DNA of 38,253 nucleotides from Thaumarchaeota archaeon 13_1_40CM_4_38_7 (lineage in GTDB: Archaea > Thermoproteota > Nitrososphaeria > Nitrososphaerales > Nitrosopumilaceae), in contig MNFB01000010.1 in the NCBI GenBank assembly GCA_001917995.1, positions 1 to 38,253 on the forward strand, given 5' to 3'. A program made the position numbers and the translations under genes. The notes beneath the pieces were generated by a model. That model was not told the DNA's origin and ran no database searches. It saw only the letters and a list, made by a program, of their open reading frames with translations. This document shows positions 14,700 to 26,366 of this stretch, piece after piece (position 1 is the stretch's first letter; every line of letters starts with the position of its first letter).

Positions 14700-15197
14700 T
14701 TGGTTAGCAGGGGAAAAGTTGTAATAATTGCGGCATTTGCTGGCCTCGGTTTCATGATGGTCTTTTTCTATCTTTATGCAAATTCCTTTCAAGGTGATCT
14801 TAACAAAGTAACGATTCGGCTCGAGAGTGTTAATATTCTTGATGAGAATAAACTGGATAAACGAGCCCACCTTAATGTAAGATTCTATATTCAAAACCCT
14901 ACGTCTATGGTATTGACGGTCTCTACCATCAATTATGAATTGTATGCAAATGGGAATAACGTTGGAGAGGGCCATTTTACAACAGAAGACATTCCAGAGG
15001 CCGGAAGACCCCCCCTTTTTGCGAATGATAATCTGACTTTATCAAACACATTTGAACTTGTAAATGATGATAAGATTTCAAAAGAATATCTGGCAATAAC
15101 AACTAATCAGGCAGTAAAATATGAAGCAAAAGGACAAATTACTATAGAGTCATTTTTGACAGCAGTTACCAAGGATTTTGATTCAACTTTGGGCTAG
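14700..15197 (+). CDS. LEA14-like (WHy-type) membrane-anchored protein, paralog of 20471..20989
   Basis: N-terminal TM then VTIRLESVNILDENK...NVRFYIQNPTSMVLTVSTINYELYANGNNVGEGHF...IPEAGRPPLFANDN. Confidence 0.6.
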   Translation: MVSRGKVVIIAAFAGLGFMMVFFYLYANSFQGDLNKVTIRLESVNILDENKLDKRAHLNVRFYIQNPTSMVLTVSTINYELYANGNNVGEGHFTTEDIPEAGRPPLFANDNLTLSNTFELVNDDKISKEYLAITTNQAVKYEAKGQITIESFLTAVTKDFDSTLG

Positions 15198-15592
15198 CCA
15201 AGTCCCCAACTTGTTTTGGTCTTTGGTGTAATTTTTACAAACGGAGCTTCTCCTTCTTTCCAAGGATTTTCCCTTACCCAGGCAAATTTTTTGTAGAAAA
15301 TATCGTACAAACGCTTGAACTCGGGACCCTTTTCTACAAGGATAGTTAAGCCTTGCACTATCACAGCTTTGTGCTTTGTAGGAGAGTAAATGTCGACTGA
15401 GATTGCAATCTTGTTGTTCTTTTTTAGATTTGTGTACTTTTTTGTGTCGTAATCAGTTGCAAAGTAAAAGTATCCGTCTTCAAAGTAATATGTTACAGGG
15501 GCTATGTGTGGTACATCTTTGGTACATGTTGCAACCCTACATCCTTCGTTTGCTTGAAGAAATTCAATTTCGCGTATCGTAAATTTTATCAT
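15194..15592 (-). CDS. Pyridoxamine 5'-phosphate oxidase-like FMN-binding protein
   Basis: EIEFLQANEGCRVATCTKDVPHIAPVTYYFEDGYFYFATDYDTKKYTNLKKNNKIAISVD. Confidence 0.82.
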   Translation of the reverse strand: MIKFTIREIEFLQANEGCRVATCTKDVPHIAPVTYYFEDGYFYFATDYDTKKYTNLKKNNKIAISVDIYSPTKHKAVIVQGLTILVEKGPEFKRLYDIFYKKFAWVRENPWKEGEAPFVKITPKTKTSWGLG

Positions 15593-15625: not shown

Positions 15626-15699
15626 TGGGCCGAGAGAGATTTGAACTCTCGACCACCGCCGTGTCAGGGCGGTATCCTAACCAACTAGACGATCGGCCC
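15626..15699 (-). tRNA. tRNA-Val(GAC)
   Basis: Reverse complement GGGCCGA TC GTCT...CCGCC CTGACAC GGCGG...GAGAGTTCAAATCTCTC TCGGCCC A: full cloverleaf, anticodon GAC. Confidence 0.92.
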
Positions 15700-15780: not shown

Positions 15781-16491
15781 ATGGTTGGTGATTTTTCATC
15801 AGAAGAAAAGAACGGCTTTTACAAAGCGGTCTTTTCAAGGAGAGATGTTAGGTCTCATTTTACTTCTGAGCCAATAGACGAAAAGGTATTATCAAAAATA
15901 CTCAATGCCGCACATCATGCGCCTTCTGTTGGATTTTCACAACCTTGGAATTTTATTCTTATCAAAGACATAGAAACGAGAACAAAAGTAAAGGATTCAT
16001 TCGAAAAGGAAAGAATTCGCTCTTCTATTCTAGTTAATGACCCTAAAAGATCAAAGTATCTCTCACTAAGATTGGAGGGGATCTTAGATTCAGCAGTAAA
16101 CATCTGTGTAACATATGATCCGTCAAAGTTTGGACCGTTCGTAATAGGGAGAACAAGCGTACCAGAAACTGGCATCTACAGCGTTTGCTGTGCAATACAG
16201 AATCTTTGGCTTTCTGCAAGAGCAGAAGGTATAGGCGTTGGTTGGGTAAGCATACTCTCAAATGACGATCTAAAAAAAATTCTTGATATTCCAGAACATG
16301 TTGTACCTGTTGCGTATCTATGTCTTGGAAATGTATCCAAGTTTGCAGAAAAACCCGATTTGGAGACTGTAGGCTGGCTGCCACGACTTGGTCTTAAGGA
16401 TGTAGTTTTCTATGAAAAGTGGAATAATGCTGATGATCCTAATTGGAAGCAGATTCGAGAAATGATAATTTCAAATCTTGATTACGCTTAA
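15781..16491 (+). CDS. bluB: 5,6-dimethylbenzimidazole synthase (BluB)
   Basis: FYKAVFSRRDVRSHFTSEPIDEKVLSKILNAAHHAPSVGFSQPWNFILI; ETGIYSVCCAIQNLWLSARAEGIGVGWVSIL. Confidence 0.88.
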   Translation: MVGDFSSEEKNGFYKAVFSRRDVRSHFTSEPIDEKVLSKILNAAHHAPSVGFSQPWNFILIKDIETRTKVKDSFEKERIRSSILVNDPKRSKYLSLRLEGILDSAVNICVTYDPSKFGPFVIGRTSVPETGIYSVCCAIQNLWLSARAEGIGVGWVSILSNDDLKKILDIPEHVVPVAYLCLGNVSKFAEKPDLETVGWLPRLGLKDVVFYEKWNNADDPNWKQIREMIISNLDYA

Positions 16492-21930: not shown

Positions 21931-22263
21931 ATGGAAGATAAATTAGAAACGATCTTCAGTCTTCAAAAAAATCTAGAAAGAATGATGAATTTAGAACGTT
22001 ATCCAAAGGACATTCAAGGAAAAATATCTGCTTTGTGTACGGCTATAATTCATGAGGCTGTAGAACTTCAAATGACTACTAACTGGAAGTGGTGGAAAAA
22101 ACCAACTCCATTTGATGAAGCTGCTGCTCGCGAAGAGCTTATCGACATATGGCATTTCGTAGTTCAGGCATCCTTAGAGTTAAACATGACACCAGCAGAT
22201 ATCTTAAAAGAATATCAGAAAAAACATCAAATCAACAAACAGCGGCAGATAGATGGATACTAA
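21931..22263 (+). CDS. Dimeric dUTPase-like / all-alpha NTP pyrophosphatase
   Basis: ALCTAIIHEAVELQMTTNWKWWKKPTPFDEAAAREELIDIWHFVVQASLELNM: EExxE/ExxD-type metal-binding pattern. Confidence 0.8.
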   Translation: MEDKLETIFSLQKNLERMMNLERYPKDIQGKISALCTAIIHEAVELQMTTNWKWWKKPTPFDEAAAREELIDIWHFVVQASLELNMTPADILKEYQKKHQINKQRQIDGY

Positions 22264-22745
22264 TTTTTATTTTTAATTTCAATTATGGCTTTTAGATTGT
22301 AGATTCTATCTTCGCCGATTTTATCAATGATTTTAACCTGGTTTTGAAATCTTGATACTTCTTGTTTTGTAAGGGATACAATTGGTTGTGGGCTTTGTGA
22401 ACCTATAATTTTGCCATTTTCGTCAATACCATTTTTGTACAAACAAAGCAAGGAATGCCCTGGTCTATGTCCTACAGTATCTTTACCACATAATATGATC
22501 ATGCTAATCTTGGCGTTTGATATCACGTATTTCACAAGCGAGTCGATTCCTTTGTTTTCTGATAGCAATCTGCCGGCTATCGCAATCTCGTTCATCAGTG
22601 AAGAATTTGCTATTTTTTTGAGGAATCTTATACTTGAAAGAGTACACACTGCAATACCAGATTTAGAATTTCCAAAGAAAATCTTCTCTTCAATTGGAAG
22701 AAGAATTTTACATAATTCGCCTGCAATCTCTTCGACTAGATTCAT
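22260..22745 (-). CDS. MtrA-like corrinoid protein (tetrahydromethanopterin S-methyltransferase subunit A homolog), soluble
   Basis: GIAVCTLSSIRFLKKI...EIAIAGRLLSENKGIDSLVKYVISNAKISMIILCGKDTVGHRPGHSLLCLYKNGIDENGKIIGSQSPQPIVSLTKQEVSRFQNQVKIIDKIGE; no C-terminal TM helix. Confidence 0.85.
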   Translation of the reverse strand: MNLVEEIAGELCKILLPIEEKIFFGNSKSGIAVCTLSSIRFLKKIANSSLMNEIAIAGRLLSENKGIDSLVKYVISNAKISMIILCGKDTVGHRPGHSLLCLYKNGIDENGKIIGSQSPQPIVSLTKQEVSRFQNQVKIIDKIGEDRIYNLKAIIEIKNKN

Positions 22746-23827
22746 TTCAAAAATCTATGCATTATCATTGAGATGTAGTGAAGATTCTTCTCAGTTACGA
22801 GAGGATGTACGGGCAAGCTCAAAACTGAAGAAGCCGCCCAATCAGTTATAGGTAATTTCAATTTCTTGCGATAAAATGGAGTTTTATGTACAGGAATTGC
22901 ATAGTATGCAGTTGCTCCTATTCCCTTTGAATTTAATTGCCTCATCAATTTATCTCGGTTTTTTGTAGCTATTGTGTAAAGATACCAATTTACTTGCACG
23001 TTTTGCCTTTCGGTGGGTAGTATAATGGCCAGATCAGATAAAAGTTCGGAAAGAATCTTGGCGTTCTTCTTTCTTTTCTCCAAGAATTTTGGCAGTTTTT
23101 TCATTTGTATTTTAGCAATGGCGGCAGAAATTTCTGGGAGTCGTAAATTTAGTCCAAGAATTCGTGTGTCATATCCATGTAGCATGCCATGATTTCGAAT
23201 CTTACGTAACTTTTCAAAAAGAGCTCGGTCATCAGTAACAATGGCACCACCTTCCCCAGATGTCATTACCTTTGCAGCATACATACTAAAACATCCCATA
23301 CGAGAAAATGATCCTGATTGTTTTCCTTTGTATGTGGTTCCAAGTGACTGGGCAGCGTCTTCGATGACCTCAAGACCATGTTTTCTTGCTATCTCAGAGA
23401 TTTCTTGAATATAAGCAAAGTTTCCGTAGAGATGTACTGGTATTATTGCTTTAGATCTTCTTGTAATCTTTTTCTCAAGATCGTCGGGGTCCATCGTATA
23501 ATTTTCAGGAAGTACATCTACAAAGACTGGCTTTGCTCCTACAGAAACTACAGAATTTGCTGTAGCTACAAAAGTAAATGACGGAAGCAAAACTTCGTCT
23601 CCACTTTTTATATCAAGTGCATAAAGAGCAGCTTGCAAAGCGGCAGTTCCAGAGTTTATTGCTATTGCGTATTTTGATTTAACATAAGAGGTCAATAGGT
23701 TCTCAAATTCTTGAACACGTTTTCCACCAGCATTTGCGGCAGTTGTTAAAGATTTTTCCACTAAAACAGAATGTACTTCATTTATCTCTTCTTTCTCAAT
23801 TATTGGAATATTTACCGGAATTTTCAA
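22742..23827 (-). CDS. DegT/DnrJ/EryC1/StrS-family sugar aminotransferase
   Basis: GTAALQAALYALDIKSGDEVLLPSFTFVATANSV; VIEDAAQSLGTTYKGKQSG; SMYAAKVMTSGEGGAIVTDD. Confidence 0.92.
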   Translation of the reverse strand: MKIPVNIPIIEKEEINEVHSVLVEKSLTTAANAGGKRVQEFENLLTSYVKSKYAIAINSGTAALQAALYALDIKSGDEVLLPSFTFVATANSVVSVGAKPVFVDVLPENYTMDPDDLEKKITRRSKAIIPVHLYGNFAYIQEISEIARKHGLEVIEDAAQSLGTTYKGKQSGSFSRMGCFSMYAAKVMTSGEGGAIVTDDRALFEKLRKIRNHGMLHGYDTRILGLNLRLPEISAAIAKIQMKKLPKFLEKRKKNAKILSELLSDLAIILPTERQNVQVNWYLYTIATKNRDKLMRQLNSKGIGATAYYAIPVHKTPFYRKKLKLPITDWAASSVLSLPVHPLVTEKNLHYISMIMHRFLK

Positions 23828-25580: not shown

Positions 25581-26366
25581 TTAACTTGTTTGTGGTTCTT
25601 CGACTATGTTGTATTTTGAAGTGTATCCACGTGGGTTTATCATCAAGTCTTTGTATCTGAAGGTAGAAGAGTTACCCACTATGACAGTAGTAATCATTCC
25701 CAGCTTGTCAGAATGATTTTCCATATTTTCCAAGTCTGTAAGAATAATTTCTTGTGATTCTCTAAATGCGCCTTTTACAATTGCAACTGGCGTGTTTGGT
25801 GTTCTGTATTTTAACAGAATCTTTCTAGTATCCTGTAGTTGATGAATTCTTTTCTTGCTTGCAGGATTGTATATTACTATAACATAGTCTCCTTGTGCCG
25901 CAGCCTCCACTCTTTTTACTATGATTTCCCATGGAACAAGCAAATCACTCATGCTGACTACTGCAAAATCAGTCATAAGCGGTGAACCAACCAATGCAGC
26001 GCATGAATTAAGCGATGATACACCTGGCACGATTTCAACGTACATGCCAGTTTTCTTATCCCATCCTTCCTCTGATAAAATTTCGTAGATGAGTCCTGCC
26101 ATTCCATAGATACCAGGATCTCCGCTTGAAACCAAGGAAACTATTTTTCCAGTTTTTGCAAGCTCAATACACTGGTGTGCTCTTTCAACTTCTTGTGTCA
26201 TTGCATATCTATGAACTTCTTTTCCTTCAATTAGGTCCTCAACCAAGTTCACATAAGTCTCATAGCCTACAATTGTATCACTTTCTTCGATTACCTGTTT
26301 TGCACGAAAAGTCATGTGATCATGATGACCTGGCCCCACACCTACGATATACAATTTCCCAGTCAT
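25581..26366 (-). CDS. cobJ: Precorrin-3B / cobalt-precorrin-3 C17-methyltransferase
   Basis: LYIVGVGPGHHDHMTFRAKQVIEESDTIVGYETYVNLV; VSLVSSGDPGIYGMAGLIYEI; IVIYNPASKKR. Confidence 0.92.
   Translation of the reverse strand: MTGKLYIVGVGPGHHDHMTFRAKQVIEESDTIVGYETYVNLVEDLIEGKEVHRYAMTQEVERAHQCIELAKTGKIVSLVSSGDPGIYGMAGLIYEILSEEGWDKKTGMYVEIVPGVSSLNSCAALVGSPLMTDFAVVSMSDLLVPWEIIVKRVEAAAQGDYVIVIYNPASKKRIHQLQDTRKILLKYRTPNTPVAIVKGAFRESQEIILTDLENMENHSDKLGMITTVIVGNSSTFRYKDLMINPRGYTSKYNIVEEPQTS

Follow-up and report, generated by a model that had tools for sequence, protein, structure and literature searches.

A soluble MtrA-type protein of ammonia-oxidizing archaea, its conserved cobalt-ligand residues and its flavin- or F420-type split-barrel neighbour

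The window analysed here, meaning the whole 38,253-nucleotide stretch of DNA, is contig 9 of a source genome that is 80% complete and whose nearest named relatives are Nitrosotalea-type MAGs. On its minus strand, positions 22260..22745 hold a stop-free frame of 161 aa, which we call mtrA and which encodes a soluble MtrA-like, probably cobamide-binding protein. The MtrA family profile PF04208 matches this protein with 89.7 bits (2.3e-25; gathering cut-off 25), it is the sole MtrA match in the source genome, and its PDB matches are all MtrA (5laa, 5l8x, 8q3v and 9qtq); a chance reading frame is excluded, since 231 of 400 class genomes carry MtrA-family matches (among good genomes, 156 of 220). 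The protein ends after the corrinoid domain with no C-terminal membrane segment, and it falls below the NCBIfam equivalog cut-off for TIGR01111 (80.8 bits vs 249). An earlier sequence-only reading of this DNA had proposed an MtrA homologue without a membrane anchor in a non-methanogenic setting, and it holds up in each respect; no MtrB-G gene is seen among the window genes examined.

Immediately upstream lies a gene for a DegT/DnrJ/EryC1/StrS sugar-type aminotransferase (degT, 22742..23827, minus strand; PF01041, 385 bits), which overlaps mtrA by 4 nt (ATGA), just as that reading had reported, and on the other side a dUTPase_2/MazG-like gene (mazG, 21931..22263, plus strand; PF08761, 62.3 bits) converges with mtrA. 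The two cobamide genes that had been picked out in the window were correctly named: bluB, for 5,6-dimethylbenzimidazole synthase (15781..16491, plus strand; TIGR02476, 235.7 bits, cut-off 150), and cobJ/cbiH, for precorrin-3B C17-methyltransferase (25581..26366, minus strand; TIGR01466, 310.5 bits, cut-off 246). Adjoining bluB is a gene for a PPOX protein, a PNPOx-like split barrel of the FMN or F420 type (15194..15592, minus strand); a tRNA gene (15626-15699, minus strand) sits between the two. A promoter scan gave results at chance level, and a terminator scan was uninformative.

The residues that hold the corrinoid in methanogen MtrA are present in the protein encoded by mtrA. We mapped residues through a phmmer alignment to 5laa, the Methanothermus fervidus MtrA, in which, beyond the gap, query residue q corresponds to chain residue 21+(q-25)-5, and counted conservation in 121 non-redundant sequences from ammonia-oxidizing archaea (AOA). 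H93 (codon 22467..22469, minus strand) is the exact alignment partner of His84, and E63 (codon 22557..22559, minus strand) that of Glu54; in the crystal structure, His84 is the lower axial cobalt ligand and Glu54 its hydrogen-bond partner (PMC4915002). Both H93 and E63 are invariant, each in 120 of the 120 AOA sequences that cover the site, which confirms the suggestion that the corrinoid-ligating histidine is conserved. Two cysteines are likewise invariant in the AOA subfamily: C12 (codon 22710..22712, minus strand; 121/121) and C34 (codon 22644..22646, minus strand; 120/120), the latter a Val in M. fervidus; C86 is kept in 114/120. The meander motif of methanogen MtrA, GAIPF-Y/F-xEN, is not kept in the AOA sequences, which have SxSPxPxLT instead and retain of the meander only the Pro equivalent to 112. 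The AlphaFold (AF2) model has a mean pLDDT of 88.8, with residues 11-19, among them C12, at low confidence, and its predicted fold matches the MtrA crystal structures: the top Foldseek matches are all MtrA (best E 7e-13, TM 0.73-0.77), led by 5l8x and 5laa at a TM of about 0.75, and nothing outside MtrA is convincing, the next match having an E of 0.02.

The AOA protein has the predicted fold of the MtrA (PF04208) of methyl-H4MPT:coenzyme M methyltransferase and the same Glu54/His84 pair positions; it differs from the MtrA of that complex in having no anchor, no MtrH that we could find in the genomes tested, no meander motif, a score below the equivalog cut-off, and the invariant C12 and C34, and its identity to solved MtrA proteins is at most 33%. 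It also resembles the cytoplasmic MtrA homologues of methanogens, which are likewise soluble and single-domain and of which the M. fervidus protein (PDB 5laa) binds cobalamin base-off/His-on (PMC4915002). Those homologues are close copies of the membrane MtrA, with 60-97% identity (PMC4915002), whereas the AOA proteins make up an old clade of their own, and no MtrH was found in the AOA genomes tested.

A profile of the AOA form gives AOA sequences, usually of 155-190 aa, at least 199 bits, and gives other MtrA of the phylum, with open frames of at least 224 aa, at most 124 bits. In the tree, the AOA sequences are one supported clade (98/94) with mostly family-level structure; outside their own family groups fall L139, on a long branch, and one sequence of family f2 (L135), which groups with family f5. 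Here f1, f2 and f3 are what we take to be the Nitrosopumilaceae, Nitrosocaldaceae and Nitrososphaeraceae. By these sequence comparisons, mtrA is a lineage-specific gene for a soluble MtrA-type protein of AOA, and the short form was inherited vertically from the AOA ancestor. It is found in most AOA, with losses in several Nitrosopumilaceae genera. One genome (G086; L142 4823-5276) has an mtrA pseudogene with frameshifts and many stops between intact degT and mazG genes. One genome from the genus of the source genome (G125, 99% complete) lacks MtrA, which is likely a bin gap because the adjacent pfkB is missing too.

Outside the Nitrosopumilaceae, mtrA is associated with the PPOX gene. The PPOX protein of the window matches PF01243 with 48.4 bits (cut-off 28.1), its AF2 model has a mean pLDDT of 95.1, and the Foldseek matches of that model are F420/FMN split barrels that include both F420 and FMN binders. 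It has its fold and sequence family in common with split-barrel oxidoreductases of the MSMEG_6526, MSMEG_3380 and Rv1155 type; it shows weak matches to several F420 PPOX models, and its scores against the NCBIfam PPOX models all stay under the respective cut-offs. The sequence-only reading left this gene unlinked to mtrA, although the orthologue sits in the window beside bluB. Three other families, the Nitrososphaeraceae, the Nitrosocaldaceae and f5, have the orthologue directly upstream of mtrA, co-directional in all 17 such genomes with hit-to-hit gaps of 62-198 bases; at three loci (L155, L172 and L176) the end of the PPOX frame and the predicted beginning of mtrA share 4 nt, the spacing is 1 nt at three others (L153, L164 and L174), and the remaining flanking genes differ among the three families. 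Within Nitrosopumilaceae, MtrA and PPOX tend to occur together (counts 64/12/3/5; Fisher P = 0.007, a test that ignores relatedness); the orthologue is missing from 12 of the 76 MtrA-positive Nitrosopumilaceae, and PPOX also occurs without MtrA. No cobamide genes surround the PPOX gene in Nitrosopumilus-type genomes, where a parvulin-like gene adjoins it instead. The older neighbour of mtrA is probably the PPOX flavin- or F420-type protein, not degT. In one Nitrososphaeraceae genus (g36) the usual PPOX gene is not adjacent to mtrA, and a different PPOX (L170 5495-5938; TIGR03618, above cut-off) is encoded near it.

A carrier gene with a split-barrel gene of the flavin or F420 type beside it suggests that the redox state of the cobalt is being controlled. 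Given its ligand pair and predicted fold, the MtrA-like protein likely binds cobamide, which would be held base-off/His-on; H93 would ligate the cobalt from the lower side and be held in turn by E63. The PPOX protein, as the likely ancestral partner, would keep or make the carrier's cobalt reduced, and the reduced cobamide would then be delivered, adenosylation and the reactivation of cobamide enzymes being two examples of where it might go. The best reading, which we put forward tentatively and with somewhat less than even confidence, is a role in cobamide redox handling or delivery, with a soluble carrier that would be reduced by PPOX and would pass its cobamide on; we prefer it to methyl transfer of the Mtr type, in which coenzyme M is the acceptor. 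That the MtrA-like carrier and the PPOX reductase constitute a two-protein AOA module for cobamide redox state or delivery is a more doubtful proposition. Two analogies bear on such a mechanism. CobR is a flavoprotein that can bring Co(II) to the Co(I) state needed in adenosylation (PMC4083273), and CobR together with CobA, where cobalt reduction by a flavoprotein comes first, offers a proposed functional parallel; the link between PPOX and CobR is one of gene neighbourhood only, and we claim no homology. The second is MtrI, whose Cys40 can serve as an upper thiol ligand and so cap the MtrA cobalt when oxygen is present (PMC12774963), which makes the AOA-specific cysteines worth testing.

In several Nitrososphaeraceae, a gene for the ATP:corrinoid adenosyltransferase CobA/BtuR (PF02572, 198 bits) is found near mtrA, divergently adjacent or one gene away (G070, G093, G115, G140, G202 and G082); this adjacency is a single, divergent syntenic region of that family. 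CobA is also present in AOA that lack both MtrA and PPOX (G046 and G124), and therefore the MtrA-PPOX module is not needed for adenosylation and its role would be accessory.

Three other explanations deserve consideration, the first of which starts from the aminotransferase. The block around mtrA is syntenic in 80 named AOA loci, and at each of the 74 Nitrosopumilaceae loci where this could be measured the mtrA ORF begins within degT, with an overlap of 4 nt in 56 and 8 nt in 12 (68/74 together) and a longer nominal overlap in the remaining 6, where the ORF caller picked an earlier start; co-expression is likely there, and the two products could form a functional pair, for example in a cobamide-linked step of sugar or surface-glycan synthesis. 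The mtrA-degT arrangement is conserved, then, throughout the measurable loci of this family and not beyond it, degT being seen as a neighbour of mtrA in Nitrosopumilaceae only. Within the family, each gene has been lost without the other: mtrA is kept without degT at four loci (L085, L105, L118 and L119), degT is kept without mtrA in two genomes (G063 and G160), and in G086 the decayed mtrA lies beside degT. The functional link to the aminotransferase suggested by the sequence-only reading is accordingly family-limited and we consider it highly improbable; DegT pairing as an ancestral link we reject, and we read the overlap of the two genes as a derived feature of the Nitrosopumilaceae. The convergent mazG-mtrA pair is kept in Nitrosopumilaceae and in several Nitrososphaeraceae, and because the mazG-like gene is common to both, the ancestral order was likely PPOX, mtrA, mazG, with degT a later arrival.

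A second possibility is a soluble methyl carrier. The MtrA-like protein could receive a methyl group from methyl-tetrahydropterin by way of some methyltransferase and donate it to an acceptor such as a thiol, and PPOX would be the reductive activator that returns Co(II) to Co(I); H93 and E63 match the ligand pair of a corrinoid protein that transfers methyl groups (PMC4915002), having a reductase as partner would be in keeping with reactivation, and in methanogens MtrA has been proposed to feed the core methionine synthase MesA (PMC7857596). Against this, MtrH, the search for which had been suggested from the sequence, has no match in the source genome or in any genome of f1, f2, f3 or f5 tested; methyl carrying is possible, but no methyltransferase partner came to light. 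All four combinations of presence exist for MtrA and MetH (PF02574) or MetE (PF01717), and the AOA MetH is split, a PF02574 protein lying beside one of about 840 aa with a B12-binding domain, and appears to have such a domain of its own. We therefore rejected a link to methionine synthase, MtrA presence being independent of MetH/MetE type, and we regard the methyl-carrier explanation as unlikely. Members of the source genome's genus differ in their type of methionine synthase: the source genome itself has a MetE-type match (G000:C24:2061-3032) and no PF02574 match, whereas most relatives have split MetH. The MtrA-like protein might instead act on its own, with no catalytic partner, as a cobamide store, buffer or scavenger that would benefit cells which both make and release cobamides, and being small, soluble, ligand-conserved and dispensable in several lineages it would fit that description; such a role leaves unexplained both the tight PPOX operon and the two extra invariant cysteines, and we find it improbable.

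MtrA homologues with a mostly conserved His84 were already known in some non-methanogenic archaea (PMC4915002), and MtrAH outside methanogens has been described as of unclear role (PMC9635834). In the open-licence papers searched we found no account of the AOA gene's function, the AOA subfamily, the PPOX operon or the loss pattern. A two-component table (PMC4084955) gives one TIGRFAM 'MtrA' per AOA genome under osmotic-stress regulators, an entry that is possibly a name clash with the gene described here.

AOA are abundant, and a protein that most of them keep, with the cobalt ligands of a methanogenesis subunit but no known role, marks a gap in what is understood of their cobamide metabolism. 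They are also major cobamide producers. If cobamide redox handling or delivery is indeed the role of the MtrA-like protein, the MtrA fold would be used outside methyl transfer in aerobic, cobamide-producing organisms, and the PPOX partner gives a concrete lead on that role. The protein could also mislead annotation into reporting methanogenesis where there is none.

The phylum contains further forms of MtrA. In family f21, MtrA is fused to DUF4346 (PF14251, tested on L159), as in L159 6768-7553, L158 7368-8279, L130, L133 and L134; these fusions have lost the equivalents of both Glu54 and His84, and their MtrA fold probably no longer ligates cobalt. A protein of family f19 (L169 6352-7470) keeps the His and the Glu and combines MtrA with a DUF4346-like C-terminus and a Cys-rich N-terminus that may be an Fe-S domain. 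In families f9/f10 (L165-L168), a longer MtrA of about 257 aa is encoded directly after a predicted membrane permease, with a conserved 238-aa protein nearby in L166-L168, and one genome (G196) has a longer MtrA together with MtrH.
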